Positions 22,719 through 48,596 of a stretch of 53,816 bases of DNA are shown one piece after another. Origin of the DNA: an uncultured Lachnospiraceae bacterium (lineage in GTDB: Bacteria > Bacillota > Clostridia > Lachnospirales > Lachnospiraceae). The notes beneath the pieces were generated by a model. That model was not told the DNA's origin. It did no database searches and was given only the letters and a program-made list of their open reading frames with translations. Each line of letters begins with the position of its first letter. Within the stretch, counting starts at the first letter, position 1. The position numbers and the translations under genes were made by a program. The stretch is from positions 1 to 53,816 of the forward strand of contig CANRBX010000015.1 of assembly GCA_947628955.1 (NCBI GenBank). Direction: 5' to 3'.

Positions 22719-22863
22719 GCAGAGGCGGATCGAATGTCCGTCCCGGACAGAGCGGCATGTCTGTGAGGGAAGGCCAGGAATGTGGCGGAAGAACTGAGCA
22801 GAGGCGGATCGAATGTCCGTCCCGGACAGAGCGGCATGTCTGTGAAAGAAGGCCCGGAATGGA
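22706..22863. repeat. 79-bp duplication that includes the end of the nucleotidyltransferase gene
   Basis: The block from 22706 (GCGGAAGAACTGAGCAGAGG...) repeats from 22785 with almost no change. The first copy begins inside the last codons of the upstream gene and contains its TGA; the second is non-coding. Each copy has a TGTCCG-TCC-CGGACA hairpin. Confidence 0.9.
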
Positions 22864-27068: not shown

Positions 27069-28949
27069 TTACCGCAGCAGGTCCTCCTGCTGGCGGATGT
27101 ATGATTCCAGCGTATTTTTATCGATCAGAGCGGGAACCACACCCTCTCTTGTGACACTGAATCCTGCTGCGTAGGTGGCAATGCGGATGGAGGCTTCCAG
27201 AGAGCAGCCGTCCAGCAGATAGCAGGCCAGGGCGCTGATGAAGGCGTCGCAGGCGCCGGAGCTGTCGACCGAGGAAAACTTTGCCGCCGGGAAGCAGGAG
27301 GAGGTGTCTTTATTTTTCAGGTAGCAGCCGCGGGGGCCGAGCGTGACGATCACATTGCCCACGCCCTGCTGCAGGAGATATTCGGCGCGTTCCTCCAGCG
27401 AGGAGCCCTGCGGGCAGATTTCCTCCAGCTCGTCCTCATTGGGGATCAGGTAGTCGGTCAGTCGCAGGATGGAGCCGGACAGGGGGCCGACCGCGGAGGG
27501 CTTGATCATGGTCTGCACCTGGTGCCTGCGCGCCAGCACACAGGCGGCCTCCACGGTTTCCAGAGGGATCTCCGTCGGGATCAGGCAGAACCCGGCGTTG
27601 TCAAACAGATCTTCGTTTTTCTGTACCGCCTCCGGCGTCAGCATGATGTTTGCGCCGGAAAGGATGGAGATCATGGAATCTCCGTCCTTCTGGACGAAGA
27701 TATAGGCCTGTCCGGTTTTGGCGTCGTTGTTGCGGTGTACTCCCCTGGGGTCGATATTAAAGCGGCGGATAACCGAAAAAATGAGATCCGAATCGAGGTC
27801 GTTCCCCACACTGCCGATCAGGGACACGCGGCGGCCCATTTTGGAGACTCCGACCGCCTGGTTCATGCCCTTGCCGCCGGGATACTGCTGTGCGATCGGG
27901 GAATTGACGGCTTTGCCGGAATGGGGCAGCGTATCTACGCGCAGGTAGTTGTCGATATTGATACTGCCGACGACCAGGATCTTTTTCCCCTGTCTGTCGT
28001 AGGGAACGCCGACGGTGGCCATGCTGCCGGCCGGCTGCGGATCAAAGGCGAAGGCGGGCTCATCCAGGGATTCCAGTCTGGCAATCAGCAGCCTGCCCAG
28101 ATAGTTTCCGAACTCATGGCGCGGAACCGGCAGCGAAGTGATGTCCGGGCAGGAGAAAGCGGCGTAGGCGTCATCCTTCAGGGTGACGAGCGAAAGATCA
28201 CAGGGCAGCGTATAATGCAGGGTGTTCAGCTTCTCATAGAGGCGAAGAGCCGTGAGGTAATGGGAAGCTACCAGGCCGCTGACAGAATGGCTGGCGATGC
28301 TGCGGAGCAGGTTCTGATCGGGGCCGCGGAACAGAAGCTCGCTGCGGAAGGGAATGTTGTGGTCAAACAGGCACTGTCTGTAGCCCTGCAGCACACTGTC
28401 CGCGTAACGGCCTGTGTCCAGAAGACAGCCGATCTCGCGGTGCCGGTGTCTGATCAGCAGCTCCGTGGCCTGGTATCCGAGCCGGCGAAAATCCAGACAG
28501 ACGGCCTGCGGCTGGCTGCAGTGGAAAAAAACGCAGGGGATGCCGGCGTCGGCGAGCGCCTGCTTTGATTCTTTGCTGAAATGGTCCGAGGCCTCCAGAA
28601 GGATGCCGTCGGCGTGCCGGCTGATCATCGAGGATACCTGCCGGTATTCCAGTTCGGGGTCGTTGCCGCTTGCGCTGACCGTCAGCGAATAGTCCGCATT
28701 CTGAGCTGCGTCCAGGATGCCGCTCAGGATGGTATCGCGGTTTTTAAGGGAGCGGAAGATCACTCCCAGCAGCATGGTCCGGGAATTGCCGGAGAGTACG
28801 GACGCGTAAGGAGAATAGTGGTACTCTTTGGCAAGATTTAAAACGCGGGTGCGCGTACTGCTGCTGATACTGTCGTCTTTGCCGTTCATGATCTTTGATA
28901 CGGTGGAAACGGAAACACCTGCCAGCCGGGCAATCTCTCTTATGGTCAT
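27069..28949 (-). CDS. LacI-type regulator fused to a PfkB (ribokinase-like) domain
   Basis: A 626-residue fusion. Residues 1-46 are a LacI DNA-binding domain (MTIREIARLAGVSVSTVSKI). Residues about 60-315 are the periplasmic-binding-protein-like effector domain. From about 322 (KKILVVGSINIDNYLRVDTL) to the end is a full PfkB kinase domain with motif 1 YPGGKGMNQAVG and motif 2 DSSGACDAFISA (catalytic Asp kept, but GACD instead of the usual GAGD). ATG 28949 has AAGGA 6 bases upstream; the 25 extra N-terminal codons of the open frame are unlikely. It is divergent from a second PfkB kinase and transporter operon, which it probably represses. Whether the kinase domain is active or only senses sugar is unknown. 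Confidence 0.9.
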   Translation of the reverse strand: MTIREIARLAGVSVSTVSKIMNGKDDSISSSTRTRVLNLAKEYHYSPYASVLSGNSRTMLLGVIFRSLKNRDTILSGILDAAQNADYSLTVSASGNDPELEYRQVSSMISRHADGILLEASDHFSKESKQALADAGIPCVFFHCSQPQAVCLDFRRLGYQATELLIRHRHREIGCLLDTGRYADSVLQGYRQCLFDHNIPFRSELLFRGPDQNLLRSIASHSVSGLVASHYLTALRLYEKLNTLHYTLPCDLSLVTLKDDAYAAFSCPDITSLPVPRHEFGNYLGRLLIARLESLDEPAFAFDPQPAGSMATVGVPYDRQGKKILVVGSINIDNYLRVDTLPHSGKAVNSPIAQQYPGGKGMNQAVGVSKMGRRVSLIGSVGNDLDSDLIFSVIRRFNIDPRGVHRNNDAKTGQAYIFVQKDGDSMISILSGANIMLTPEAVQKNEDLFDNAGFCLIPTEIPLETVEAACVLARRHQVQTMIKPSAVGPLSGSILRLTDYLIPNEDELEEICPQGSSLEERAEYLLQQGVGNVIVTLGPRGCYLKNKDTSSCFPAAKFSSVDSSGACDAFISALACYLLDGCSLEASIRIATYAAGFSVTREGVVPALIDKNTLESYIRQQEDLLR

Positions 28950-29046
28950 GATAATCCTTATTCTCCTTGTCTTATAATGATTCATAAAATGATGCCGCGG
29001 GTTTTCCGCACTTCGTGCTTTCAAAATCCTGGCAATGTATAAATTT

Positions 29047-29241: not shown

Positions 29242-30135
29242 ATGAGAATAACAAATCTTGGATCTCTGAACATAGACAGAACTTATCAGCTGGAACGCTT
29301 TGTGGAGCCAAAGGAAACGGTGACCGCGCTGGGCTACGAGGAGCACTGCGGCGGCAAGGGCCTGAATCAGTCGGTGGCTCTGGCCAGAGCGGGGGCCGAA
29401 GTGTACCATGCCGGCCTCATCGGAAGCGGCGGGGATCTGCTTCTGGAGACACTGCAGCGGGCCGGCGTGCATACGCAGCTGGTGCGAAGGACGGATGCTC
29501 CCGGCGGCCACGCCGTCATCCAGGTGGACGCAAAGGGTCAGAACAGCATCATCGTCTTCGGCGGCGCTAATGAGAGGATCACCAGGGAATACATCGACAT
29601 GGTCCTGCAGCAGACGGGGGCGGGCAATCTGCTTCTTCTGCAGAATGAGGTATCCAACATCGACTACGCGATCGAAAAAGCCTCAGAGATGGGGATCCTC
29701 ATCGCGTTCAATCCCTCGCCGTTTAACGAGAGGATCCTTCGCTGCCGGCTGGAACTGGTGGATTATTTCCTCGTCAATGAGGTGGAAGGAAGGCTGCTGG
29801 GCGGGGCCGGCTCGCTCGAGCCGTGCGAGATCATTGAAAAACTGAAGCGGAAATTCCCGCGAAGCGCCTTTGTGGTGACCTTCGGGGAAAACGGTTCCTA
29901 TTATGCGAAGGACGATGCATGCCTGTTCCAGCCTGCTTTTCCGGTCAGGGCCTGCGATACGACGGCCGCGGGAGATACCTACTGCGGTTATTTCCTCGCC
30001 GGACTGGCGTCCGGAAAAACGCTGGGGGAGAGCATGCGCCAGGCAGCCGCGGCGAGCGCCCTGGCGGTCACCGTAAAAGGCGCGGCCCCCAGCATTCCCT
30101 CACGGGAAGAAGTAACGAAATTTTTACTCCCATGA
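29242..30135 (+). CDS. PfkB family sugar kinase (ribokinase-like)
   Basis: A 297-residue kinase. Motif 1 is CGGKGLNQSVALARAGAEV (about residues 36-54); motif 2 DTTAAGDTYCGYFLAG (about 239-254) contains the catalytic Asp. The short length and NLGSLNIDRTY start fit ribokinase. It likely phosphorylates ribose or another pentose/hexose released from the compound imported by the downstream BMP transporter. GGAGGGACGGAC precedes the ATG. It is the first gene of an operon that runs at least to 36464. Confidence 0.9.
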   Translation: MRITNLGSLNIDRTYQLERFVEPKETVTALGYEEHCGGKGLNQSVALARAGAEVYHAGLIGSGGDLLLETLQRAGVHTQLVRRTDAPGGHAVIQVDAKGQNSIIVFGGANERITREYIDMVLQQTGAGNLLLLQNEVSNIDYAIEKASEMGILIAFNPSPFNERILRCRLELVDYFLVNEVEGRLLGGAGSLEPCEIIEKLKRKFPRSAFVVTFGENGSYYAKDDACLFQPAFPVRACDTTAAGDTYCGYFLAGLASGKTLGESMRQAAAASALAVTVKGAAPSIPSREEVTKFLLP

Positions 30136-30146
30136 GCAATGCGTCC

Positions 30147-30194
30147 GGCGGTTCTGCCTCCGGACCTTCCGGGTCCGGAGCTTCGGCAGGCGCC
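30147..30194 (+). other. Stable intercistronic hairpin before the BMP gene
   Basis: CTCCGGACC (30158-30166) pairs with GGTCCGGAG (30172-30180) around a five-base loop, and outer CTGC/GCAG and GGCG/CGCC arms extend it. There is no U-run. It probably marks an RNA processing or stability boundary rather than a terminator. Confidence 0.65.
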
Positions 30195-30246
30195 GCGGGG
30201 ATAACTGTCCCTGGGAGCAAAAAAATAAAAATAAAGGAGAAAAGAG

Positions 30247-31335
30247 ATGAAGAAAAGAGCAACGGCACTGATGGTGATGGTATGCGCGGCGCTGGCGGTA
30301 TGCACGGGCGTTCACGCGGAGGAGGAAAAACCTTCCTTTGTATTTGTCTGCACAGGTCAGCTGGGGGACAAATCCTTCAACGATTCCGCCAATGAAGGCG
30401 TGATGAAGATCGCGGAAGAGCTTGGCTGCGAGACAAAGGTGATCGAGGTCGGACGCGACCAGACAAAGTGGGAGCCGACCTTTATGGATCTGGCGGAAGA
30501 GGGCAGATATGATGTCATCATCTCCAACGGGTCTTCCTCTGCGGAAGTGATCGAAATGGTGGCGGAGGAGTTCCCGGATCAGAAGTTCGTGATGTTTGAC
30601 TCGACGATGGATGAGGATAAGTATCCGAACCTTTACGCGATCAGCTACAAACAGAACGAAGGCTCTTATCTGGCAGGTGTTCTGGCGGCCCTCGTGACTG
30701 AGTCCGATATGGAGAACGCCAACGAGGAGAAGAAGATCGGTTTTGTCGGCGGCTCCGAGCATCCGATCATCACTGATTTCCTGGTGGGCTACATCGCGGG
30801 CGCAAAATCCGTGGACGAGGACATTAAGGTATACGTCTCCTATATCGGTTCCTGGGACGATACTGCAAAGGGGAAAGAGACCGCTATCGCACAGTACAAT
30901 CAGGGCGTGGATATCATCTTCCCGGCAGCGGAGCAGGCAGGACTTGGCTGCGTGGAGGCTGCCGCGGAGATGAATAAATACATCATCGGCGTTGACTCCG
31001 ATCAGGCAATGCTCTTCAAGGGCACGGATGAGGCCAGGGCAAATGTGATCCTCACTTCCGTTCTGAAGCAGGTCGGCGATTCTCTGGTCCGCATGGCCAA
31101 AATGGAAATGGAAGGAACGGTTCCGTGGGGCAGATATGAGGAGCTGGGGATTAAGGAAAACGGCGCCGGCATCGCAGTCAACGAATATTACGAAGCGAAC
31201 GTTCCGGAGGAGATCCGGAAGACCGTGGAGGAGAAGAAGGAAGAAGTGACAGCCGGCGGCGTGGAGATCCCGACGGCTCTGGGTGACGCAGATCAGGACG
31301 AGGTTCAGGCTCTGATCGATTCAGTCGCACCGTAA
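30247..31335 (+). CDS. BMP family ABC transporter substrate-binding protein
   Basis: A 362-residue exported binding protein of the Bmp/PnrA (nucleoside) type. After an N-terminal signal (cleavage likely after VHA at residue 24) come FVFVCTGQLGDKSFNDSANEG, VIISNGSSSAEVIEMVA and FVMFDSTMDEDKYPN, the usual order of this family, whose known members bind purine nucleosides. A Cys in LAVCTG is near the signal end, but Val before it is a poor lipobox, so the mode of anchoring is unclear. AAAGGAGAAAAGAG precedes the ATG. Hairpins lie on both sides of the gene, consistent with higher mRNA stability than the rest of the operon. Confidence 0.92.
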   Translation: MKKRATALMVMVCAALAVCTGVHAEEEKPSFVFVCTGQLGDKSFNDSANEGVMKIAEELGCETKVIEVGRDQTKWEPTFMDLAEEGRYDVIISNGSSSAEVIEMVAEEFPDQKFVMFDSTMDEDKYPNLYAISYKQNEGSYLAGVLAALVTESDMENANEEKKIGFVGGSEHPIITDFLVGYIAGAKSVDEDIKVYVSYIGSWDDTAKGKETAIAQYNQGVDIIFPAAEQAGLGCVEAAAEMNKYIIGVDSDQAMLFKGTDEARANVILTSVLKQVGDSLVRMAKMEMEGTVPWGRYEELGIKENGAGIAVNEYYEANVPEEIRKTVEEKKEEVTAGGVEIPTALGDADQDEVQALIDSVAP

Positions 31336-31348
31336 CGGAGTTTATGGC

Positions 31349-31380
31349 AGGGGTTGCCGCAGAGGGATGCGGCAGCCCCT
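31349..31380 (+). terminator. Hairpin after the BMP gene (partial terminator or stabiliser)
   Basis: AGGGGTTGCCGC (31349-31360) pairs with GCGGCAGCCCCT (31369-31380), 12 bp with one G-U, followed by TTATC. Only 42 bases separate it from the ATPase gene, so readthrough must occur. Confidence 0.6.
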
Positions 31381-31422
31381 TTATCGGAAACGGCATATAA
31401 CTGGCAGGAAAGGGATGAAGTA

Positions 31423-32964
31423 ATGGCAAAGGATATTCTTCGGATGGAAGGGATCACGAAGATCTACCCGAATGGGGTAATGGCGAACCGGGATGTCACG
31501 TTCACCGTTCAGGAAGGTGAGATCCATGCGCTGATGGGAGAGAACGGGGCCGGAAAGAGCACGCTGATGAAGATCCTGTTCGGAGATGAAGAGCGGACGG
31601 AAGGTCATATTTTCTTTGAGGGCCGCGAGATCAGTCCCAGAAGCTCGGCGGAGACGATCGATATGGGGATCGGCATGGTGCATCAGCATTTTATGCTGGT
31701 GGATTCGCTGAAGGTATATGAGAATGTCATCCTGGGGATGGAGCCGAAAAAGGGATTTATGACCAGCAAGTCGGCAGCGGTTTCCATGGTGCAGGAGACG
31801 GCCGAAAAATATAATCTGAACGTGGATCCGGAGGCGAAGGTGGCGGATATTTCCGTGGGCCTCAAGCAGAAGGTGGAGATCTTAAAGGTGCTTGCCCGCG
31901 GGGCAAAGCTGCTCATTCTGGATGAGCCGACGGCGGTCCTGACGCCGCAGGAGACGGAGGAACTGTTTGAACAGCTGCTTTTGCTGAAAAAGAGCGGGCA
32001 CACGATCATTTTTATTTCCCATAAGATCCGGGAGGTCATGCAGATCTGCGACACGATCACCGTGCTGCGCGCCGGCCGAACCGTAGGCAGCATGCCGGTG
32101 GCAAATGCCACGGAGGAAGAGATCTCCCGCTTTATGGTGGGCAGGGATGTGGTCCTTAAGGTGGATAAAAAGAAGGCGGAGTTTGGCGAAGTGCTGCTGG
32201 ATGTGAAGGGCCTGACCTGCCACAACCAGGAGGGCAGAACGCTGCTGGATGGGGTATCGTTTCAGTTAAGGCGAGGCCAGATACTCGGTGTGGCCGGCGT
32301 AGAGGGCAACGGACAGAACGAGCTTGCGGAGGCCATTTTCGGCTTCTATAAAAACCTGAGCGGCGAGATCCGGTTCCAGGGCAGGAATATCTGCGGATAT
32401 AACATCCGCAGCATCCGGGAATCCGGCATTTCCTACATTCCGGAGGACCGTATCAAGATGGGCGTCGCCTCCAATGTGAGCATCTGGGAAAATCTGATCG
32501 CGCACCGGATGGACTCGGACGAATTCCGCAGCGGCGCGCTGCTCGATTATAAAAAGATCCATCATTTTGCGGCCGGGGCCATTGAGGATTTCAACATCCT
32601 GTGCAAAAATGACGAGCAGACGGCCGGGATGCTCTCGGGCGGCAATATGCAGAAAGTGGTCGTGGCGCGCGAGTTCTCGGATGATCCGGATCTGCTGATC
32701 GCGAACCAGCCGACGCGGGGCATCGACGTCGGCGCCAACGAATTTATCTGGAAGAAGATTGTGGAACATCGGGACAAAGGAAACGGTGTCATGCTGATCT
32801 CGGCGGATTTAAACGAGATCATGGAGCTTTCGGACAGCATCCTCGTCATGTGCGACGGAAAGGCGGCCGCATATTTTGAAGACAGTTCCAAAATCGATGA
32901 ATTTGAACTGGGCAAATATATGCTTGGCCTGAAGAGACAGGAGGGGATGAGCGATGAAGACTAA
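31423..32964 (+). CDS. ABC transporter ATP-binding protein, nucleoside/sugar type
   Basis: A 513-residue protein with two ABC domains. The first has Walker A MGENGAGKSTLMKI (about 37-50), the signature region ISVGLKQKVEILK and Walker B LLILDEPTAVL. The second has GVEGNGQNELAEAI in place of a standard Walker A, a known degenerate form in this subfamily, and the signature LSGGNMQKVVVARE. It powers import by the two permeases that follow. ATG 31423 is preceded by AGGAAAGGGA. It overlaps the next gene by 11 bases. Confidence 0.95.
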   Translation: MAKDILRMEGITKIYPNGVMANRDVTFTVQEGEIHALMGENGAGKSTLMKILFGDEERTEGHIFFEGREISPRSSAETIDMGIGMVHQHFMLVDSLKVYENVILGMEPKKGFMTSKSAAVSMVQETAEKYNLNVDPEAKVADISVGLKQKVEILKVLARGAKLLILDEPTAVLTPQETEELFEQLLLLKKSGHTIIFISHKIREVMQICDTITVLRAGRTVGSMPVANATEEEISRFMVGRDVVLKVDKKKAEFGEVLLDVKGLTCHNQEGRTLLDGVSFQLRRGQILGVAGVEGNGQNELAEAIFGFYKNLSGEIRFQGRNICGYNIRSIRESGISYIPEDRIKMGVASNVSIWENLIAHRMDSDEFRSGALLDYKKIHHFAAGAIEDFNILCKNDEQTAGMLSGGNMQKVVVAREFSDDPDLLIANQPTRGIDVGANEFIWKKIVEHRDKGNGVMLISADLNEIMELSDSILVMCDGKAAAYFEDSSKIDEFELGKYMLGLKRQEGMSDED

Positions 32965-34042
32965 AAAGGTGAGAATGTATTCCTCTTACGTGGAAGCACT
33001 GCGTATGACGGTGGCTGTCCTGTGTTCGCTGCTGATCGTTTTTGCGATCATCCTGATGACCAGCGAACAGCCGCTGGAGGCGCTGCGGAATTTTGTGTTC
33101 GGTCCGCTGACCTCTCTGCGGCGGTTCGGGAATGTGATCGAGGCGATGACGCCGCTGATGTTTACCGGCCTGGCGGTGATCGTGCTGTTCCGCCCGGGGC
33201 TGTTCAACCTTTCGATGGAGGGCGCCTTCTTTACGGGCGCGGTGGCGGCCTGCGCGGGCGCCCTGGTCGTCGATCTTCCGCCGGTCCTCAATCTGATTTT
33301 TGCGATGCTCTGCGCGATGATCGCCGGCGGCTTTACCTGTGCGATCCCCGGGGTGCTGAGGGCTAAATGCGGCGCGAACGAACTGGTGACCTCGCTGATG
33401 CTCAACTATATCTGCCTGTTTGCTGGGCTCTACGTCATCACGGCTTTTTTCTATGATCCGACGCAGAATTCCAATTATTCCTACAAATTTGCAGAGAGCA
33501 TGTCGCTTCCGAGGATCCTGCCGGGGACCCGCATCAATCTGGGCACGGTCCTGGCACTTTTAACGGTGGCGGCCGTCTGGCTGATCCTTACCAAGACCTC
33601 GTTCGGCTTCAAGACCAGACTGGTCGGAGAAAACAACACGATGGCGGACTATTCCGGCATCAACTCAGCGAATACCATTATCCTTTCACAGATCGTCGGC
33701 GGCATGCTGGCCGGTCTGGGCGGAGCGGTGGAGCTGTTCGGCATGTACCAGAGATTTCAGTACAGCGACCTTCCGGGCTTCGGCTGGGACGGTGTGCTGA
33801 TCACGATCGTGGCGCGGCATAAGGCGCAGTATGTGCCGCTGGCGGCATTTTTCCTGGCCTATCTGAGGACCGGGGCGGACATCATGTCCAGAAACTGCGA
33901 CATCCCCTTCGAGATCGTGAAGATCATTCAGGCGGTCATGGTGCTGCTGATCTCGGCGACGGCGATCCTGAGCGGCTTAAAGAAGCGGATGATCATCAAA
34001 GAAACCCGTGCCCTGGAAGCGCTGAATCAGGAGGTGAGATGA
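32954..34042 (+). CDS. ABC transporter permease (nucleoside type) 1
   Basis: A 362-residue inner-membrane permease of the BPD_transp_2 family with about ten hydrophobic segments. Family blocks include FRPGLFNLSMEGAFFTGA and LVGENNTMADYSGIN, typical for the first of two unlike permeases in nucleoside ABC systems (NupP-like). It overlaps the ATPase gene and ends three bases before the second permease gene, so all are translated together. Confidence 0.94.
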   Translation: MKTKKVRMYSSYVEALRMTVAVLCSLLIVFAIILMTSEQPLEALRNFVFGPLTSLRRFGNVIEAMTPLMFTGLAVIVLFRPGLFNLSMEGAFFTGAVAACAGALVVDLPPVLNLIFAMLCAMIAGGFTCAIPGVLRAKCGANELVTSLMLNYICLFAGLYVITAFFYDPTQNSNYSYKFAESMSLPRILPGTRINLGTVLALLTVAAVWLILTKTSFGFKTRLVGENNTMADYSGINSANTIILSQIVGGMLAGLGGAVELFGMYQRFQYSDLPGFGWDGVLITIVARHKAQYVPLAAFFLAYLRTGADIMSRNCDIPFEIVKIIQAVMVLLISATAILSGLKKRMIIKETRALEALNQEVR

Positions 34043-34045
34043 TTT

Positions 34046-34969
34046 ATGAATATATGGAGTGTTATTTTTTCAGCGGATTTCCTGTTCACGGCGATCCGGC
34101 TGATGACGCCGATCCTGTTTGCGGCGCTGGCCTGCATGGTCTTTACGAAGGGCGGCATCGACGCGATCGGTACGGAGGGCATCATGCTCAGCTGCGCGCT
34201 TGCCGGCCCGGTGGGAGCCTGGTTTTCCCAGAACGTGTTTGTGGGAGTTCTGGCAGCGGTGCTGGTCGGAATCCTGCTTTCCTGTATCTACGGATATTTT
34301 ACCATTGTGCTGGATACCAATTCGGTGCTGGCGGGCATCGCGCTGAATACGCTTTCGGGCGGCCTGACTATTTTTGTGATCTATGCCCTCACGGGGAATA
34401 AAGGTTCCACGCAGAGCCTCAGCAATCCGGTGGTCTCCAATCTTGAGATCCCCTTGCTGAAGGATATTCCGGTGCTGGGTTCCATCCTCTCGGGGCACAG
34501 TATCCTGACGTATCTGGCGCTGCTGCTGACGGCTGCGCTGGCCGTCTTTTTCTGGAAGACGCCGACGGGACTGCGTATCCGCGCGGTGGGAGAGAACGAG
34601 CATGCGGCCAGATCGGTCGGCCTGAATGTGATGAAATATAAATACATCGCGCTGTGCATGGCGGGCACGCTCGCAGGGCTGGGCGGCACCTATATGTCGA
34701 TGAGCTATGTCTCCTTCTTCTCGCGCGATATGATCGCCGGCCGCGGCTGGATCGGCATGGCCGCGGAGTCGATGGGGCGCGGCACGCCGTGGGGCATCAC
34801 GCTGTCCGTGTTTATCTTCGGCATTGCGGATTCTCTGTCGATCCGCCTGCAGATGCTGAGCCTTCCCTCGCAGCTGATTCAGACGATCCCCTATGTGGTC
34901 ACGATCGTCGCGATCGCCGGTTATTCCTGGCGGAGCATGAAGATGCGCAGGAAACCGATAAAACAATAG
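34046..34969 (+). CDS. ABC transporter permease (nucleoside type) 2
   Basis: A 307-residue permease of the BPD_transp_2 family, NupQ-like, with about nine membrane segments. Characteristic stretches: KGGIDAIGTEGIMLSCALAG near residues 33-52, IRAVGENEHAARSVGLNV and GMAAESMGRGTPWG. It pairs with the preceding permease to form the channel. Confidence 0.94.
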   Translation: MNIWSVIFSADFLFTAIRLMTPILFAALACMVFTKGGIDAIGTEGIMLSCALAGPVGAWFSQNVFVGVLAAVLVGILLSCIYGYFTIVLDTNSVLAGIALNTLSGGLTIFVIYALTGNKGSTQSLSNPVVSNLEIPLLKDIPVLGSILSGHSILTYLALLLTAALAVFFWKTPTGLRIRAVGENEHAARSVGLNVMKYKYIALCMAGTLAGLGGTYMSMSYVSFFSRDMIAGRGWIGMAAESMGRGTPWGITLSVFIFGIADSLSIRLQMLSLPSQLIQTIPYVVTIVAIAGYSWRSMKMRRKPIKQ

Positions 34970-35054
34970 GAATGGAAAGCTGTGCGGCCGGCCGGGAACA
35001 AAGCACATGCAGACATACGGAAAGCGATTAAGCGCAGGAAGTGAGGTTGCATAT

Positions 35055-36464
35055 ATGGGAAAAAAGGCCTGGGAATACGAATATGAATGGATCACGCACG
35101 CCGTGCCGCCGCGGGTGACGGAGGTGCAGGAAGAAGAGTGGATGAAATACTCAGAGAACGGCGCCGCGTCGGATCAGCGGCTGTTTACCGACTGGTACAG
35201 CGAGGTGCCCGGCTCCAGGGCGCCCTGCCATCTGGTGCCGGCGGCGATCCAGTGCATGGCCGCGAAGGGATATGACGTCTCGGAGGCGGAGCAGTATATT
35301 GAGGCAGGCTTAAAGGCGGAACGGGAGAAGGACGGGGCGGCCATTCAGCAGATCACGGCCCGCATCTGCTATATCCTGAACACGGCGAAGCAGGATCCGG
35401 CCTCCGCCTATGCATCCTGCGGCGTGTACCGCACGTTTGCGGATATCGAGAAGAAGGTTTCCTTTCCGCCGGCAGCAAAATACGATGTTTATGGGGAGGA
35501 CTTCGCGCAGCGCATCCGCGCGGGCTGGATGGGCCAGCTGGTGGGCGGGTGTCTGGGCACCCAGATCGAGGGCTACACGACGGAGAACATCCGCAGAGTC
35601 TTCGGGGAGGTGCGCGGCTATCTGCGCGCTCCCGAGACCTACAACGACGATATCACCTATGAGCTCGCCTATCTGGACGGATTTGCCGAGAAGGGCTACC
35701 GGATCACGCCGGAGGACATCGCCTTTAAATGGCTGGAGCTGATCGCCGACGGATATTCGGCGGAGAAGATCGCCCTGGAAAATCTGCGGCGCGGCCTGAT
35801 GCCGCCTGAGAGCGGAACGCAGAACAATTATTTTTCGGACTGGATCGGCGCGCAGATGCGCACCATGGTACACGGGATGGCGGCTCCCGGCGATCCCCGG
35901 CTGGCGGCGCGTCTGGCCGCGGACGACAGCGTGGTTTCGCATTCCAACAACGGGATGCTCGGCGGCGTGTTCAACGCGGTTCTGGTCTCTCTGTGCTTCA
36001 CCGAGACCGACATCCGCACAGCGGTGGAAAAGGCGGTCGCCTGCATCCCCGCGGACAGTGAATTTTACAGTGTGGTGGAGTTTGCGCTGTGGCAGTGCCG
36101 GGTACAGCGAACCTGGGAGGAGGCGTGGGCGGTATGTGAGGAGCGCTACCGCGAGTATAACTGGATCCATGCCTACCCCAATGCGGCCGCCGAGGTGATC
36201 GCGCTGTGGTACGGAAACATGGACTTTGATGAGACCTGCCATATCATCTGCATGGAGGGGCAGGATGTGGACTGTACGGCGACGCCTGTCCTTAACGCGC
36301 TGGCGGTGATGAAGGGGTACGATTCCATCGAAGAAAAATGGATCACGCCCATCGGCAGCGATATCTATACCACGATGCGCAAAATGCGTCACCTGACCTT
36401 TGACGAGCTTTGCGAAAAGACCGTGAGCGCGGTGCGCAGGGCGCAGAAGGAGAGGCACGCTTAA
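35055..36464 (+). CDS. ADP-ribosylglycohydrolase (DraG) family protein
   Basis: A 469-residue protein. An N-terminal extension of about 140 residues precedes the ADP-ribosylglycohydrolase fold (about 150-465), opening with RIRAGWMGQLVGGCLGTQIEG. Metal-binding patterns are YNDDITYEL (about 198) and GQDVDCTATPVLNAL near the C-terminus, where the family has G-D-x-D-x-N/T. Classical members remove ADP-ribose from proteins or cleave ADP-ribose-like glycosides. Encoded in a nucleoside-type transport operon with a ribokinase-like gene, it more likely hydrolyses an imported N-glycoside to ribose and base. ATG 35055 has GTGAGG 8 bases upstream. Confidence 0.88.
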   Translation: MGKKAWEYEYEWITHAVPPRVTEVQEEEWMKYSENGAASDQRLFTDWYSEVPGSRAPCHLVPAAIQCMAAKGYDVSEAEQYIEAGLKAEREKDGAAIQQITARICYILNTAKQDPASAYASCGVYRTFADIEKKVSFPPAAKYDVYGEDFAQRIRAGWMGQLVGGCLGTQIEGYTTENIRRVFGEVRGYLRAPETYNDDITYELAYLDGFAEKGYRITPEDIAFKWLELIADGYSAEKIALENLRRGLMPPESGTQNNYFSDWIGAQMRTMVHGMAAPGDPRLAARLAADDSVVSHSNNGMLGGVFNAVLVSLCFTETDIRTAVEKAVACIPADSEFYSVVEFALWQCRVQRTWEEAWAVCEERYREYNWIHAYPNAAAEVIALWYGNMDFDETCHIICMEGQDVDCTATPVLNALAVMKGYDSIEEKWITPIGSDIYTTMRKMRHLTFDELCEKTVSAVRRAQKERHA

Positions 36465-36469: not shown

Positions 36470-36498
36470 TTGAAACCGTTCATGACAGATCGTATAAT
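36470..36498 (+). promoter_or_regulatory. Promoter of the LpdD-like gene
   Basis: TTGAAA (36470-36475), 17-base spacer, TATAAT (36493-36498). It starts a new transcription unit right after the transporter operon. Confidence 0.82.
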
Positions 36499-36537: not shown

Positions 36538-36912
36538 ATGCATATGAGCAGAGACATAATTCTTGAGAAGAGATTATCATTTTCTTCGATTCACCTACAG
36601 ATATCCAGGATGGGCGAGGACTATCATATCCTGCTGTGGGGTGGGGAACGGCCGCACATCGGGTGTACGGTGCTGTCCGTCCCGCGGCCGTCGCTGACGG
36701 GCGACGGGAGCGTGTCCGTCACATCCTCGGTGCTGAATGTAACCGGGCATAAGGACGAGCAGATCTGCCGCCTGCTTGCGGATGAGGTCGCGGTGCGGAA
36801 GCAGGCTGTCGTCGTCTGTACCGGCGGCTTCCATTATGATGCGATAACGCCCGCCCAGATCCGTGAGGTCGTGGACGGGGTGAAGGAGATGGCGGCAGAC
36901 CCGGCAATATGA
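36538..36912 (+). CDS. lpdD: LpdD-like protein (gallate decarboxylase accessory)
   Basis: A 124-residue cytosolic protein that resembles the small subunit/chaperone LpdD encoded with Lactobacillus plantarum gallate decarboxylase. Matching features are GGERPHIGCTVLSVPR near residue 35, VTSSVLNVTGHKDEQI near 60 and TGGFHYDAITPAQI near 96. LpdD-like proteins are thought to help with the prenylated flavin cofactor. UbiD and UbiX genes lie 4-6 kb downstream on the same strand, which supports the role. ATG 36538 or 36544 may be the start (AAAGGA at 36527). The stop codon is part of the first unit of a tandem repeat. Confidence 0.8.
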   Translation: MHMSRDIILEKRLSFSSIHLQISRMGEDYHILLWGGERPHIGCTVLSVPRPSLTGDGSVSVTSSVLNVTGHKDEQICRLLADEVAVRKQAVVVCTGGFHYDAITPAQIREVVDGVKEMAADPAI

Positions 36913-37058
36913 GCCGGTGCCGTCACGGCGAAGGATGGCCCCGGCAATATAAGCCGGTGCCGTGACGGCGAAGGGCGGCTCCGGCAATATGAGCCGGTGG
37001 CGTCACAGAGAAGGGCAGCCTGGCAATATGAGCCGGCGCCGTCACAGGGAAGGACAGG
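36901..37058. repeat. Four-unit 40-bp array bridging two convergent stop codons
   Basis: Units start at 36901, 36941, 36981 and 37020, consensus opening CCGGCAATATGAGCCGGTGC. The TGA in unit 1 is the stop of the LpdD-like gene; the TCA in unit 4 (37042-37044) is the stop of the minus-strand LysR gene. Each unit can fold as CCGGC/GCCGG and most as GCCG/CGGC. Confidence 0.9.
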
Positions 37059-37938
37059 CGCTGCAGAACTCGGCGTAGAACAGTTCTGCGGCGCCGTTTT
37101 TTCTGCGCAGGTTACAGTAGAGATATTCGCTGAAGCGGCAGGCTGTGTCGGAGATGCCGACCGTGTGCGTGCTGCCGGCGGTGAATGCGCGGGCGTACCC
37201 CGGTATGATCGCGATCCCCTTCCCGACGGCGACCAGAAACAGTGCGGTGGAGAGATTGGGCACCGGGGTGCAGGTGACCCGGTTGTGGGTGTGCCGCTGC
37301 GCCAGCAGCCAGTTCTGGGCATACGGGCCGAAATACTCGTGCGAGAACGGGACAAGGATGTTTTCGCCTTCCAGATCCCGCAGCTGCAGGAGCGATTTCA
37401 TGAGGAGACGATGCCCCGGGCCGAGGGCGGCGCAGGTGCTGTGGCTGGCGATCAGGCGGGACTGGATGCCGTCGCCCGGATTCGGATATTCACATGGAGA
37501 GAAGATGAGATCGTACTCATCCCCGTGCAGGATATCCTCGGACAGTCCCTCCGTTTTTACCTCGAAATCCATATGAATATTGGGATAGCGGTCTGCGAAA
37601 CGGCTGATAAAGATCTGTATGTGGGATGCCTGTGTCATCTCCAGGGCGCAGGCGATGCGGATCTCCCCCTGGACGGGGAGGTTGGAGATCTGCAGCAGGG
37701 CTGCCGTCCTGTTGCAGCGGTCGATCAGCCCCTGCGCGCGGTCCGCCAGGATCCGTCCGCTCTCCGTCAGGGCGACGCCGTGCGTTGTGCGGGAGAACAG
37801 CACGGCATCCAGCTCGCGTTCCAGATCCTGAATATGCTTCGAGAGAACGGACTGCGAGATATATAAATGTTCCGCGGCCTTGCTGTAATTTAATGTCCTG
37901 GACAGAATCAGAAATTCATAGAGCCTGTCGGTGTTCAT
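37042..37938 (-). CDS. LysR family regulator 1
   Basis: A 298-residue LysR-type regulator. The N-terminal winged helix (RLYEFLILSRTLNYSKAAEHLYISQSV region, residues 4-40) is followed by the effector-binding domain. The start at 37938 is chosen because AAAGGAGG lies about 10 bases upstream and the HTH begins right after it. It overlaps the upstream LysR gene by 23 bases, so the two are co-transcribed and probably translationally coupled. Its last codons come from the repeat array. Likely role: control of the tannase/decarboxylase genes with an aromatic acid as effector. Confidence 0.9.
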   Translation of the reverse strand: MNTDRLYEFLILSRTLNYSKAAEHLYISQSVLSKHIQDLERELDAVLFSRTTHGVALTESGRILADRAQGLIDRCNRTAALLQISNLPVQGEIRIACALEMTQASHIQIFISRFADRYPNIHMDFEVKTEGLSEDILHGDEYDLIFSPCEYPNPGDGIQSRLIASHSTCAALGPGHRLLMKSLLQLRDLEGENILVPFSHEYFGPYAQNWLLAQRHTHNRVTCTPVPNLSTALFLVAVGKGIAIIPGYARAFTAGSTHTVGISDTACRFSEYLYCNLRRKNGAAELFYAEFCSACPSL

Positions 37939-38836
37939 AGCGGGCGGCCTCCTTTGTAAACTGAAAAAACAGATCGACAAATTTCCTCACCTCGGGCCTG
38001 CCCGCTTTCCGGCTGTAAAACAGCGCGGAGAATGCCGCGCAGGGAGCGTCTGTGAGCGGCAGACAGACCGTTTTTGGAGGAAGCCCAAAAACCGGCGCCG
38101 GCAGCAGGACAATTCCCTTCCCGACGGGAACCAGGAGTGCGAAAAATACCGGCGATGTGCCGCTGTCGTAAATGCTGCGGCGGATCCCGGACGCCTGCAG
38201 ATTTTCAAGCTGAAAATCCCGGATGCCGCTCTCCTTTGTCTGAGGATACAGAATGAAACACTCTCCGTCCAGGTCCCGCATGGAGACAGTCGGTCGGGAG
38301 GCGAGAGGATGGCCCTCCGGCAGCAGGACACAGTGCCGGGGCGGAGAAATGATCCTCCTTACGATCCCTTCCCGCTGCGGCAGGCGGTTCATGGAAGGCG
38401 CAAAGTAAACGTTGACCTCTCCGCTGTCCAGTCCCTCTGCGATCGAATAGCGTGTATCGTCGGAGAACTCCAGCCGGACATGCGGATACTTTGCGTTCAG
38501 AAGATCCAGAAACGGGCCCAGAAACAGGGGGAGCGCGATGCCGGACACAGCGATCTTCAGGCTTTGAAACTCCTGCGCGCCGGGCTGCTTCAGCGACTGC
38601 CGGAGGTCTGTGTATTCCCTGACAATCTCGAGCGCGTCCGCATAGAGCCGCTTCCCCTCTCCGGTCAGCGCAAGAACGCCGTTCTCCCTCTGAAAAAGCG
38701 AGACGCCGAGGGTGTTCTCCAGCACATGCATGCGGGAGCGCAGGGTGGCAGGCGGCAGGCGCAGCTCATCCGCGGCTGCTTTCAGGCTCCCGCGGTCTGC
38801 GATCTTTACAAATTCATGTAATCGTTCCAGTTCCAT
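37916..38836 (-). CDS. LysR family regulator 2
   Basis: A 306-residue LysR-type regulator with HTH at about residues 3-60 (ELERLHEFVKIADRGSLKAA) and a C-terminal effector domain. It is divergent from the tannase gene across a 310-base region, the usual setting for a LysR target. The HTH scaffold is less conserved than in regulator 1 (RLPPATLRSRMHVLE). It is first in a two-gene LysR operon. Confidence 0.9.
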   Translation of the reverse strand: MELERLHEFVKIADRGSLKAAADELRLPPATLRSRMHVLENTLGVSLFQRENGVLALTGEGKRLYADALEIVREYTDLRQSLKQPGAQEFQSLKIAVSGIALPLFLGPFLDLLNAKYPHVRLEFSDDTRYSIAEGLDSGEVNVYFAPSMNRLPQREGIVRRIISPPRHCVLLPEGHPLASRPTVSMRDLDGECFILYPQTKESGIRDFQLENLQASGIRRSIYDSGTSPVFFALLVPVGKGIVLLPAPVFGLPPKTVCLPLTDAPCAAFSALFYSRKAGRPEVRKFVDLFFQFTKEAARYEHRQAL

Positions 38837-38846
38837 GGCTTTACTC

Positions 38847-38900
38847 CAAATTTGAATAATAGAATAATAAAAGAATAGCGGAATGTCCCTGAGAAGTCAA
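38847..38900 (-). promoter_or_regulatory. Promoter region of the LysR pair
   Basis: Minus-strand TTGACT (38900-38895) and TATTCT (38877-38872) are spaced by 17 bases. A CAAATTTG palindrome at 38847-38854 could be an autoregulatory LysR site. In the rest of the 310-base divergent region, up to the tannase start at 39147, I see AT-rich sequence, a TATAAA at 39033 and no convincing -35 for the plus strand, as expected for an activator-dependent promoter. Confidence 0.55.
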
Positions 38901-39146
38901 CAGAAAAGATTAAAAACGCAGAAATAAAGAGATTTTCTGAAAAGAATTTCCATGCGCGGCATACAAAACGATGAAAAACAGAATAACAAAAGCGCGAAAA
39001 GGGATTCAAAAATCTCTGCCGTCATGCTAGAGTATAAACAGAGCAGAGATCTGCTTCTGACAGAGTCGTCTGCTGACGTGAAAAAAGGCGGCGGGAAGCG
39101 GATCGCAGCAGTATGTTCAGAAAATTTACTACAGGGAGGGTACAGG

Positions 39147-40883
39147 ATGTATACAGAAATTCCGGTGACAAATCAGACGATGGAGCTGGCTGACTGCAGG
39201 GACGCGTGGTTTTTTGATGAGAAATATCAGTGCTGGTGCCTGGAGGACGTGCTTTACACCGACAGGGCGACGACGCCCAAATTCCAGAGGCTCAGTGTTT
39301 TTGTTCCGGCGCCGTATATGAAGGAGCACGGCGTGATCGACCCGGAGGGGCAGATGAACGGGTATTCGGCCCGGACGGCCCCGGTGATCCTGCAGAATAA
39401 TTCCGCGGGATATATGCAGATGCCGCACATGTGGCTGGGCGGCCCGCGCTGCAGCGCGCCGCAGTACCTTGAACGCGGCTTCGTCTTCGTGACCTGCGGG
39501 AACCGCGGGAGGGAGTCGAAGGACAGCGCCGGCAGATCGTGCGGGAAAGCCCCGATGAATCTGGTGGATCTGAAAACCGTGATCCGCTTCCTGCGGCACA
39601 ACCGCGAAAGCATCCCGGGCGACCTCGGGCGTATCATTTCAATCGGAGCGAGCGCGGGCGGCGCGATGTCCTCCCTGCTGGCAGTCACGGGAAACCATGC
39701 GGATTTTGATCCGTATCTGAGGGAAAACGGCGCGTTCATGGATGAGCGGGACGATATCTTCGCGGCGCAGATCTACTGCCCGATCATCGACCTGGAGCAT
39801 GCGGATCCGGCATACGAGTGGGCGTTCTTCGCGGACCACGAAAATGAAAGCTCCCATGCGGGGCCGGCGGGCGTCATGACGCCGTTCCAGGAGGCGCTTT
39901 CGGCGGAGCTGAAGGAGCGCTATATCCGTTATTTCAACGATCTTGGCCTGACGGACCCGGCGACGGGCGAAATTCTTGCGATCCATGAGGATGGAAGGAG
40001 CGGCAGCGGCTATGAGTACCTGATGCGGCTGCTGAACGATTCCGCCTCCGATTTCCTTCGCAGGCTGAAAGAGGGGACGCTGGACAGAGACTATTCCGCT
40101 GAGGATTATCTGTCGGGAAATTATGAGTATCAGACAGAGGCCCCGATGGGCGGCCCCGGGGACGGTGACGGTTCTGACCTGCTGCAGGGGCATGCGGGAC
40201 CCGGGGTCGCGCTTGCAAAGGCGGAGGAGGGCAGCGGCCCGGCCGGCCGGCCCTCGCTCGGCGATCTCGTATCGCGCCCTCCGAAGGGAGTCCCCTACCG
40301 GGGAATGGAACCGCCGATGGTCACCGTCAGTGGCACGGACAAATCGGGCTGGCTTTCCTGGGACGGACAGCGGGCGCAGATCCGCGACCTCGACAGTTAT
40401 GTGCTGAACTACCGCAGACGCATGAAGCCGTGTACTGCGTTTGATGCGCTTGGAACGGACAGCGGGGAGAATGAGGTGTTCGGGACGGAGGAACGGCCTT
40501 ACGTGCACTTCAACGGCGAGATCGCCGACGCGGTTCTGGCGATAAAGGACCGGTTCCCGGAGGAGGCGGAGCGTTATTATGAGGCGTTTGCTGAGGCAGA
40601 AAAGGATGAAGAGCTGCGGCGCAGGGCCGCTTTGTACAATCCGCTGAATTATATCGGCGAGGGGAAGGGCGGAGACAGCGCGCAGTACTGCAGGATCCGC
40701 GTGGGTTCCCATGACGCGGACACCGCTCTGAGCGTCAGCATGACGCTTGCCCTCAGGCTGGCGCAGGCGGGCCGGGAAGTCGATTATGCGCTGGTGTGGG
40801 ATCAGCCGCACTGCGAAGCGGATTACCCGGGAGAACTGTGTGACTGGATCGAAAGGATTTGTGGGCAGCAGAGGGGGAATTGA
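39147..40883 (+). CDS. Tannase-like esterase (tannin acyl hydrolase)
   Basis: A 578-residue alpha/beta hydrolase without signal peptide, so probably intracellular. It resembles bacterial tannases of the L. plantarum type, which cleave galloyl esters. The nucleophile motif is IGASAGGAMSS (Ser169). Near the C-terminus, NYIGEGKGGDSAQYCRIRVG leads to the likely Asp525 in HDADTA and His555 in WDQPHCEADY, in the order and spacing of the tannase triad. The product is about 100 residues longer than the L. plantarum enzyme between Ser and Asp, including a Gly/Pro-rich stretch at about 330-365. GGGAGGG at 39134-39140 fixes ATG 39147. The decarboxylase gene starts two bases after its stop. Confidence 0.87.
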   Translation: MYTEIPVTNQTMELADCRDAWFFDEKYQCWCLEDVLYTDRATTPKFQRLSVFVPAPYMKEHGVIDPEGQMNGYSARTAPVILQNNSAGYMQMPHMWLGGPRCSAPQYLERGFVFVTCGNRGRESKDSAGRSCGKAPMNLVDLKTVIRFLRHNRESIPGDLGRIISIGASAGGAMSSLLAVTGNHADFDPYLRENGAFMDERDDIFAAQIYCPIIDLEHADPAYEWAFFADHENESSHAGPAGVMTPFQEALSAELKERYIRYFNDLGLTDPATGEILAIHEDGRSGSGYEYLMRLLNDSASDFLRRLKEGTLDRDYSAEDYLSGNYEYQTEAPMGGPGDGDGSDLLQGHAGPGVALAKAEEGSGPAGRPSLGDLVSRPPKGVPYRGMEPPMVTVSGTDKSGWLSWDGQRAQIRDLDSYVLNYRRRMKPCTAFDALGTDSGENEVFGTEERPYVHFNGEIADAVLAIKDRFPEEAERYYEAFAEAEKDEELRRRAALYNPLNYIGEGKGGDSAQYCRIRVGSHDADTALSVSMTLALRLAQAGREVDYALVWDQPHCEADYPGELCDWIERICGQQRGN

Positions 40884-40884
40884 G

Positions 40885-42384
40885 ATGGCAGATGTTTATG
40901 ACCTGCGTTCCGCACTGGAACTGCTGGAAAAGATACCGGGTCAGCTGATCCGGACCGATGTGGAGACAGAGCCGATGGCGGAGCTGTCCGGAGTGTACCG
41001 CCATGTCGGGGCCGGAGGGACGGTGCAGCGCCCCACACAGGAAGGGCCGGCAATGATCTTTAACAATATCAGGGGGCACAAAGACGCGAGGATCGTCATC
41101 GGCCTCCTGGCAAGCCGGAAGAGAGTGGGATATCTCCTGGGCTGCGACCCGAAGCGGCTTGGATTTCTTCTGAAGGAGAGCGTGGAGAACCCGGTGAAGC
41201 CGGTGGTGATTCCGAACGAGCGGGCAAAATGCCAGGAGGTGGTCCACTATGCCACGGAGGAAGGATTTGATATCCGCAGGCTCATCCCGGCGCCGACCAA
41301 CACGCCGGAGGATGCGGGGCCTTATATCACGCTCGGCATGTGCTATGCCTCGAATCCGCAGACCGGGGAGTCGGATGTGACGATCCACCGCATGTGCCTG
41401 CAGTCCAGAGATGAGATCTCGATCTTCCTGCAACCGGGAGCGCGCCATATCGGCTATTTCCGGGAGCTGGCGGAGGCGGCCGGAAAGCCGCTGCCGATCT
41501 CGGTCAGCATCGGGGTGGACCCGGCCATTGAGATCGCGTCCTGCTTCGAGCCGCCGACCACACCGCTCGGCTACGACGAGCTGCAGGCGGCCGGGGCCAT
41601 CCGAAAAGCTCCGGTCGAGATGGTGCAGTGCCTCACGATCCCGGAGAAGGCGATCGCCAACGCGGAGTATGTGATCGAGGGGGAAATCCTTCCGAACGTG
41701 CGTGTCCGGGAGGATCAGAATTCGAACACCGGGAAGGCAATGCCGGAATTTCCGGGCTACAACGGCCCCGCGAATCCGGAGCTTCCGGTGATCCGGGTGA
41801 AGGCGGTGACGACCCGCAGGCATCCGATCATGCAGACCTGCATAGGGCCGAGCGAGGAGCACGTATCCATGGCGGGGATCCCGACGGAGGCCAGCATTCT
41901 GCAGATGGTGGAAAAGGCGATGCCGGGGCGGCTGCAGAACGTTTACTGCGCGTCCAGCGGCGGCGGAAAATATATTGCGGTGCTGCAGTTTCGAAAGTCC
42001 GTGCCCTCGGACGAGGGCAGGCAGAGGCAGGCGGCGCTTCTGGCATTCTCGGCCTTTGCGGAGCTGAAGCACGTCTTTCTTGTGGATGAGGATGTAGACT
42101 GCTTCGATATGAATGATGTGATGTGGGCGATGACGACGCGCTTCCAGGCGGACATTGACCTGATCACGATCCCCGGCGTGCAGTGCCATCCGCTGGATCC
42201 CTCCAACCAGCCGGCCTACTCCGGGCATATCCGCGGCTCGGGGATCGCGTGCAAGGCGATCTTCGACTGTACGGTGCCCTTTGACCAGAAGGAGCGCTTC
42301 AGGCGAGCGAAATTCATGGAGGTTGATCCGCGCAGATGGGTTCCGGAAATGTACGGCTCTGGCAGCGCTGATCTGGCGGAGTAA
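40885..42384 (+). CDS. lpdC: UbiD family decarboxylase, LpdC-like (probable gallate decarboxylase)
   Basis: A 499-residue non-oxidative aromatic acid decarboxylase that uses prenylated FMN. Long stretches agree with L. plantarum gallate decarboxylase LpdC: ELSGVYRHVGAGGTVQRPTQ, PTNTPEDAGPYITLG, SDVTIHRM, FEPPTTPLGYDEL, GKAMPEFPGYNG, IGPSEEHVSMAGIPTEASIL and VDEDVDCFDMNDVMW. Expected reaction: gallate (or protocatechuate) to pyrogallol (or catechol) and CO2. It is coupled to the tannase gene (GAGGGGG at 40871 inside the tannase end; one-base gap) and is followed by the cofactor-making UbiX. Substrate is inferred from family and context. Confidence 0.93.
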   Translation: MADVYDLRSALELLEKIPGQLIRTDVETEPMAELSGVYRHVGAGGTVQRPTQEGPAMIFNNIRGHKDARIVIGLLASRKRVGYLLGCDPKRLGFLLKESVENPVKPVVIPNERAKCQEVVHYATEEGFDIRRLIPAPTNTPEDAGPYITLGMCYASNPQTGESDVTIHRMCLQSRDEISIFLQPGARHIGYFRELAEAAGKPLPISVSIGVDPAIEIASCFEPPTTPLGYDELQAAGAIRKAPVEMVQCLTIPEKAIANAEYVIEGEILPNVRVREDQNSNTGKAMPEFPGYNGPANPELPVIRVKAVTTRRHPIMQTCIGPSEEHVSMAGIPTEASILQMVEKAMPGRLQNVYCASSGGGKYIAVLQFRKSVPSDEGRQRQAALLAFSAFAELKHVFLVDEDVDCFDMNDVMWAMTTRFQADIDLITIPGVQCHPLDPSNQPAYSGHIRGSGIACKAIFDCTVPFDQKERFRRAKFMEVDPRRWVPEMYGSGSADLAE

Positions 42385-42456
42385 TGTGCCGGCCTGCATT
42401 CGCCTGAGCGTCTGCGGCGGCAGGATGAGAGTGAGGCTGACTGAGAGGAAGACGGG

Positions 42457-43056
42457 ATGAGACAGAGAATGATCGTGGGGATCAGCGGCGCGACGGGGAT
42501 GCCGATCGCCATCGAGCTGCTGCGCCAGCTGAAGAGGATGCCGGAGACGGAAACGCACCTGATATATACGGAGGGAGCGGAGCGGACGCTCCGCTCCGAG
42601 GGCGGAGTTTCCGCGGAGGAACTGCGCTCGCTCGCGGATTTTGTATATGACAGCCGGGACATCGGCGCGGGGCCGGCCAGCGGTTCCTGGGACTGCGGGG
42701 GAATGATCGTCGTTCCCTGCAGCATGAAAACGCTGGCGGGCATACACAGCGGCTACAGCGACAATCTGCTGCTGCGGGCGGCGGACGTGACCCTGAAGGA
42801 GCGCCGGAAGCTGGTGCTTGTGGCAAGAGAATGCCCGCTTGGCACAATCCATCTGCGGAATATGTATGAGCTGAGCCAGATGGGAGCGGTCATTCTGCCC
42901 CCGATGCTTTCCTATTACAATCATCCGCAGAGTGTGGAGGACTGTACCTGCCATGTCGTGGGGAAAATCCTGCAGCAGTTCGGGCTGGAGGGGGAAAACT
43001 ACAGGAGATGGGACGGAGCGGAACCGGGTGTTCGTCCGCCAGGAATACCTGGTTGA
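42457..43056 (+). CDS. lpdB: UbiX family flavin prenyltransferase (LpdB-like)
   Basis: A 199-residue enzyme that makes prenylated FMN from reduced FMN and dimethylallyl phosphate, the cofactor of UbiD enzymes. Visible family features: VGISGATGMPIAIELLR at the N-terminus, CGGMIVVPCSMKTLAGIHSG around residues 80-100, and RKLVLVARECPLGTIHLRNM near 125-145. It lies 72 bases after the UbiD gene in the same unit, matching the lpdB/lpdC arrangement of gallate decarboxylase systems. GAGGAAGACGGG precedes the ATG. Confidence 0.94.
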   Translation: MRQRMIVGISGATGMPIAIELLRQLKRMPETETHLIYTEGAERTLRSEGGVSAEELRSLADFVYDSRDIGAGPASGSWDCGGMIVVPCSMKTLAGIHSGYSDNLLLRAADVTLKERRKLVLVARECPLGTIHLRNMYELSQMGAVILPPMLSYYNHPQSVEDCTCHVVGKILQQFGLEGENYRRWDGAEPGVRPPGIPG

Positions 43057-48412: not shown

Positions 48413-48596
48413 CATGGCTCGGATGACATGGCTGCCCTGTGGATCGGGTGACATGCTGCGCTGCGTGCCGGGTGGCACGACTGCAATATGAACCGGGTGG
48501 CATGGCTGCCCTGTGTGCCGGTTGACATGACTGCATTGCGGCTCGGGTGACATGGCTGTACTGCATGCCGGGTGATATGCTGCACTGCGTGCCGGG
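48408..48596. repeat. About eight 25-bp repeats starting at the rimI stop codon
   Basis: Units of consensus GTGACATGGCTGCMCTGYGTGCCGG, 24 or 25 bases long, run from the TGA of rimI (48410-48412) to about 48596. The first unit is truncated. The region is the 3' flank of rimI; no gene is supported. Confidence 0.85.

Follow-up and report, generated by a model that had tools for sequence, protein, structure and literature searches.

A compact tannase, UbiD decarboxylase and LysR locus in an uncultured Lachnospiraceae bacterium: a putative route from galloyl esters to pyrogallol

In Streptococcus gallolyticus the decarboxylase genes sgdCBD are clustered near tanB (GALLO_1613 to GALLO_1609), which brings an intracellular TanB close to the catalytic decarboxylase and its B and D subunits; according to the published account, methyl gallate acts as a common inducer of sgdCBD and tanB (PMC4218992). 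The same source describes Lactiplantibacillus plantarum as having the same enzymes, with tanB close to lpdC and with lpdBD more than 1 Mb from lpdC. Clostridium butyricum is reported to carry its tannase CbTan1 near a putative gallate decarboxylase (PMC8958541). The locus considered here belongs to an uncultured Lachnospiraceae bacterium. It lies in a window that consists of one whole contig, C15 (CANRBX010000015.1, 53,816 bases); the genome assembly has 136 contigs and 3.5 Mb. At 36538-43056, an LpdD-like gene and two minus-strand LysR genes precede plus-strand genes for a tannase, a UbiD-family decarboxylase and a UbiX flavin prenyltransferase (Table 1). Judged by homology, this is very probably a locus for the catabolism of gallate esters, in which cleavage by an intracellular tannase would be followed by decarboxylation to pyrogallol. 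The cluster is real and useful, but it is ordinary in kind: its arrangement is already known in other bacteria.

All six of the genes named in an initial annotation of this DNA are found where it placed them, with strong family matches, and the compactness that it stressed is borne out by the coordinates. As in S. gallolyticus, tanB and the genes for the C, B and D subunits stand close together, here within 6.5 kb, with a single base between the tannase stop (40883) and the UbiD start (40885), and with UbiX starting 72 bp after UbiD. The tannase, UbiD and UbiX genes each have a plausible ribosome-binding site, that of UbiD being purine-rich and situated within the 3' end of the tannase gene. 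The locus differs from its S. gallolyticus counterpart, as published, in that the D gene stands beyond the regulators, the tannase directly precedes UbiD, and a tandem LysR pair is included (the regulators of S. gallolyticus lie outside this comparison). What does not survive is the annotation's claim of an unusual arrangement: the S. gallolyticus, L. plantarum tanB-lpdC and C. butyricum layouts are known, and 16 of 35 genomes of the same genus have the tannase and UbiD linked. Novelty relative to known tannin degraders is rejected on the S. gallolyticus and L. plantarum layouts as they are described (PMC4218992). For L. plantarum the annotation was right that lpdBD lies far from lpdC, the window having all of these genes together, and wrong, as regards tanB, in placing the tannases elsewhere. 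The picture of tannin degradation is unchanged by this locus. Its value is that TanB next to UbiD serves as a gene marker for predicting the capacity of uncultured Lachnospiraceae to turn dietary gallotannin into pyrogallol, and that the larger locus of its relatives points to candidate galloyl-sugar carriers.

Table 1. Features of the locus and its immediate surroundings, in window positions (prFMN, prenylated flavin mononucleotide; ORF, open reading frame)
Feature	Position	Strand	Basis or remark
Promoter-like site before the LpdD-like gene	36470..36498	+	TTGAAA-17 nt-TATAAT, 11/12 consensus matches; not proof
LpdD-like protein, probable prFMNH2-binding chaperone, 124 aa	36538..36912	+	PF21758, E 1.7e-31
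Array of four ~40-bp repeats between LpdD stop and LysR1 stop	36900..37055		
LysR1 transcriptional regulator	37042..37938	-	PF00126 and PF03466; ORF from TTG 37980, Met 37938 likelier
LysR2 transcriptional regulator, tandem with LysR1	37916..38836	-	PF00126 and PF03466
Region between LysR2 and tannase genes, presumed to hold the LysR-controlled operon promoter	38837..39146		Divergent layout; promoter-like sites (9/12 consensus matches) on each strand
TanB-type tannase, 578 aa	39147..40883	+	NF041556 over cut-off; alignment to 3wa6 and 7q6y
UbiD-family decarboxylase (LpdC/AroY-like), 499 aa	40885..42384	+	PF20695, PF01977, PF20696
UbiX flavin prenyltransferase (LpdB-like), 199 aa	42457..43056	+	PF02441, NF004685, 1sbz

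The tannase exceeds the cut-off of the curated subtype B model NF041556 (330.9 versus 300 bits) and, at 266.3 bits, stays under the cut-off of 550 of the subtype A model; it matches six distinct solved sequences, five of them named tannase and one named alpha/beta hydrolase. In the alignment to 3wa6, Ser163, Asp419 and His451 of TanB_Lp, which form its catalytic triad, correspond to Ser169, Asp523 and His555 of the window protein, while Lys343, Glu357 and Asp421, which are described as contacts to the gallate hydroxyls (PMC4218992), correspond to Lys427, Glu441 and Asp525; all six residues are invariant across 8 aligned tannase rows. The initial annotation had given the triad as Ser169, Asp525 and His555, in a numbering already consistent with a start at 39147. 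Its serine and histidine stand, and its aspartate gives way to Asp523: Asp525 is rejected as the catalytic acid because it aligns with Asp421 of TanB_Lp, a galloyl contact. In TanA-type enzymes Asp419 is replaced, and Asp421 has been proposed as the catalytic acid (PMC4218992); the window tannase has both aspartates, D523 as the Asp419 equivalent and D525 as the Asp421 equivalent. The start at Met 39147 is favored by a GGGAGG just upstream and by homologues that begin at about the same place, and the first codon of the ORF, at 38952, is rejected as an alternative. A crude hydropathy test, which is not a signal-peptide predictor, detected no hydrophobic segment among residues 1-56; CbTan1, in contrast, is described as a subtype A enzyme with a predicted signal peptide (PMC8958541). 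The window tannase is longer than the roughly 50 kDa given for subtype B and for the TanB of S. gallolyticus (PMC4218992), and some 75-90 residues at about 302-409 are extra relative to the aligned solved structures. Since that size is merely descriptive, the protein is filed, on its sequence features, as subtype B with an insert. TanALb (MBQ6323131.1), a tannase from a ruminant Lachnospiraceae that accepts tannic acid and methyl gallate as substrates, likewise has a large insertion before its catalytic Asp (residues 341-450), which its authors read as a lid; compared by published description, not by sequence, it has the same Asp-His spacing of 32 (Asp582-His614, here D523-H555) and differs in its Ser-Asp spacing, 377 versus 354 here (PMC8715002).

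Outside the window, the same genome encodes a second, secreted tannase-like protein (G000:C72, L042:3250-6936, minus strand) of about 1226 residues, with a hydrophobic leader, a serine motif GGSGGG and a Glu at the position of the catalytic Asp. Its Lys..Glu galloyl-binding block comes after the catalytic His, not between Ser and Asp, an order found in 10 of the 13 same-genus proteins compared (this one included), the other 3 being unreadable there. When the block was compared by profile, the match (68 columns, 29% identity, E 0.0038) reached a probability of just 9%, so the kinship of the block is argued mainly from the motif. Possibly the protein represents a tannase family with a rearranged order; no description of circularly permuted tannases was found among the listed titles and abstract openings of the open-licence literature.

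UbiD matches PF01977 (E 2.4e-54) together with PF20695 and PF20696, and is 59.8% identical over 487 columns to the protocatechuate decarboxylase EcAroY (5NY5), which also decarboxylates gallate, slightly more slowly than protocatechuate (PMC5656893). Its R187, E288, H326, K362 and H435 are identical with Arg188, Glu289, His327, Lys363 and His436 of AroY, residues whose exchange is reported to abolish activity (PMC5656893). The five kept residues show a predicted catechol-acid decarboxylase, not specificity for gallate. At 472.2 bits against a cut-off of 650 in NF041204, UbiD is not filed as hydroxyarylic acid decarboxylase VdcC. In a tree of 89 UbiD rows (AroY the sole characterized one, midpoint root, short tree search) it falls within a 45-row group (SH-aLRT 99) that contains 27 of the 28 tannase-linked rows, the window's included, the exception being Clostridium caldaquaticum. 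UbiX matches PF02441 (E 2.1e-40) and 1sbz (E 1.3e-61), exceeds the cut-offs of NF004685 (237.3 versus 188 bits) and TIGR00421 (215.3 versus 108.9), and with the narrower VdcB model reaches 255 bits, under the cut-off of 290. The LpdD-like protein scores 108.8 bits with PF21758 (cut-off 27) and directly matches solved LpdD only weakly (E 0.036); its H40, H71 and D73 align with H35, H61 and D63, described as the Mn ligands of that prFMN chaperone (PMC10865409). Unlike the window locus, the three enterobacterial plasmid relatives that were inspected adjoin a single LysR and lack TanB. One of these, on an Escherichia coli plasmid (L149), has a UbiD-UbiX pair behind a LysR and, 1.5 kb downstream of UbiX, an annotated tannase/feruloyl esterase-family gene (7598-8371); this may be a case in which an esterase and a decarboxylase became paired independently.

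The tannase and UbiD genes travel together in the window's genus. Among 35 genomes besides the window's own, with TanB counted at E <1e-78 and UbiD at E <1e-160, a strong TanB occurs in 18, a strong UbiD in 19 and both in 16, and where both occur they always share one contig and lie 53-3232 bp apart; TanB stands without UbiD in G018 and G024, UbiD without TanB in G011, G016 and G019, and neither is found in 14 (Fisher p 3e-5, common descent ignored). In this count the UbiD match of G021 covers residues 178-486 only, that of G027 is split over two contigs, and G024, with a 30-residue UbiD match, is taken as lacking UbiD. A second comparison drew on 80 named loci, the best 80 of 562 confirmed UbiD candidates among the matches listed, which lean to close relatives. 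A tannase lies in the flanks of 27 of them, within 5 kb in every case and within 200 bp in 9; 45 of the loci span about 10 kb on both sides, and 16 of these have a tannase.

LysR1 and LysR2 are both encoded on the minus strand, with a 23-bp overlap if LysR1 begins at Met 37938. They had been called a divergent pair, which holds for the pair as a unit relative to the tannase and fails for its members, which are in tandem. The same tandem is found in a Eubacteriales genome (S26M_St_29, locus L068), with counterparts 56% (LysR1) and 50% (LysR2) identical, followed there by genes for an esterase, GPH, an esterase, TanB, GH3, HAD, UbiD and UbiX. Because this matching tandem precedes the same kind of operon, the pair can be tied to the tannase/UbiD pathway. 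The LysR-side intergenic regions of the window and L068 share short matches only, of at most 12 bases.

From gene content and order, active-site residues and linkage across relatives, all of which are read in the sequences, we infer the substrates, co-transcription, LysR control and pyrogallol release of a pathway that would run as follows. Small galloyl esters would enter the cell via a putative carrier, and TanB would cleave them there; UbiD, with prFMN made by UbiX and passed to it by LpdD, would decarboxylate gallate to pyrogallol, which would be released as the end product; and the two tandem LysR regulators, whose genes point away from TanB-UbiD-UbiX, would sense gallate or its ester and switch the operon on. 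Cleavage followed by decarboxylation is what the initial annotation had proposed, and homology upholds it (subtype B, no leader, galloyl contacts, the catechol-binding residues of AroY, UbiX, LpdD), without the contrast to other bacteria that it had attached. The known pyrogallol transhydroxylase belongs to the molybdopterin oxidoreductase family, and the known route from pyrogallol to phloroglucinol depends on molybdenum. Since a search of the window genome gave no match to PF00384 (molybdopterin oxidoreductase), pyrogallol is probably the end product and released; the molybdenum route is unlikely in this genome.

Several observations weigh against reading the locus as one for gallate esters, or limit how far that reading reaches. 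The evidence for it is comparative throughout, the AlphaFold model of TanB (pLDDT 46) being too poor for use, and gene absences in the window genome are soft, given a completeness of 93.8% and a contamination of 6.2%. Both LysR proteins recur at at least 50% identity in 1 of the 80 named loci (L068), those in the other named loci being 21-39% identical to the window pair. In a sample of 398 genomes of the phylum, tannase_B exceeds its cut-off in 10 and UbiD reaches at least 68% in 5, and the window genome alone has both; a general link across the phylum is therefore rejected, and the pairing is a feature of the window's lineage and some others, not a general rule. The LpdD-like gene, 2.2 kb upstream of the tannase and on the far side of the LysR pair, is outside the tannase transcript. 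An alternative would make it functionally part of a presumed nucleoside-transport operon upstream and a mere neighbor of the tannase locus, and it does stand on the same strand as, and 73 bp after, an ADP-ribosylglycohydrolase-family gene. It has a promoter-like site of its own, however; LpdD-like genes are present in 44 of the 80 named loci; and in the closest relative, G011, LpdD lies beside UbiD while the window's genes upstream of LpdD do not align. Its membership in such an operon is thus very improbable. As for UbiD, no Arg is found at the position to which AroY 'Arg181', as named in PMC5656893, maps, and a protein closer to it than AroY (70.5%) is encoded on a Sporomusa termitida plasmid amid CoA-ester genes. 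The five active-site residues shared with AroY are common to 89 of 89 tree rows; they are rejected as proof of gallate specificity, because enzymes for gallate and for other catechol acids cannot be told apart by them. On this account the main substrate of UbiD might be protocatechuate or a different catechol acid, that of the tannase protocatechuate esters, and the product catechol, not pyrogallol. That would fit the substrate preference of EcAroY and the report that bacterial tannases also cut a protocatechuate ester; yet TanB keeps the complete set of three residues in contact with the three gallate hydroxyls, and the inducer of the S. gallolyticus equivalent is given as methyl gallate (PMC4218992). 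A protocatechuate pathway is accordingly judged unlikely.

Whether the gallate-ester pathway also yields sugar is a separate matter, on which the surroundings of the named loci bear. Those with a tannase differ from the others in their content of GPH symporters (11/27 versus 1/53), BD-FAE esterases (13/27 versus 4/53), GH65 (7/27 versus 0/53), GH3 (12/27 versus 2/53) and monosaccharide-type ABC permeases (8/27 versus 3/53); UbiX is present in 19/27 and 40/53, and LpdD-like genes are commoner without a tannase (33/53) than with one (11/27). The window locus can tentatively be seen, at somewhat less than an even chance, as the pared-down form of a wider galloyl-glycoside utilization locus of gut Lachnospiraceae and neighboring lineages, eroded piecewise. 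As part of that same tentative proposal, the full form would import galloyl sugars intact through either a GPH symporter or an ABC transporter of the monosaccharide type, de-esterify them inside the cell with TanB and a BD-FAE esterase, handle the sugar with GH65 or GH3, and dispose of the gallate by UbiD, UbiX and LpdD. A galloyl-glycoside locus of Lachnospiraceae was not found described among the listed titles and abstract openings of open-licence papers. Erosion is suggested by G011, whose open UbiD is 98% identical to that of the window: the alignment takes in LpdD, a single repeat and the final ~56 bp of LysR1; the remainder of the LysR pair is missing, and of the tannase only a 105-bp piece and the last ~30 bp, which run into UbiD, are left; its 19-kb contig gave no UbiX match. 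In G024 the tannase adjoins the 30-residue UbiD match. Both are draft assemblies, in which misassembly could produce such patterns. A competing explanation holds that the locus serves detoxification or pH homeostasis, not sugar gain, the sugar-handling genes having been lost or never gained and ester cleavage and proton-consuming decarboxylation remaining; it is compatible with the chemistry proposed above. The sugar transporters, BD-FAE esterase, GH65 or GH3 that many relatives have around TanB-UbiD find little echo in the window genome, a search of which gave no GH65 match and only distant matches to GH3 (24-30%) and BD-FAE (29-34%, the best being TanB itself). However, three GPH-type transporters encoded elsewhere than at the locus could supply the pathway, and the glucose released from galloyl glucose requires no special enzyme. 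Detoxification as the purpose of the locus is therefore considered possible, if doubtful. On an Enterococcus raffinosus megaplasmid (L154), an annotated subtype B tannase adjoins a PTS EIIC gene, which again hints that uptake of galloyl sugars may precede their cleavage.

The repeat array at 36900-37055 overlaps the LpdD stop codon. With 1 mismatch tolerated, the 16-base core of its four units is confined to these four positions in the window genome assembly, and G011 has a single copy at the corresponding place. Tandem arrays of other, unrelated units (19-79 bp) lie between ORFs, to within a few bases, at 8740-8889, 21486-21637, 22706-22861 and 48420-48587. Just upstream of the locus, at 29242-36464, genes for a PfkB kinase, a Bmp-type substrate-binding protein and an ADP-ribosylglycohydrolase-family protein form one run with transporter-like ORFs, presumably for nucleoside uptake, and a LacI-PfkB fusion protein is encoded at 27069-29024.

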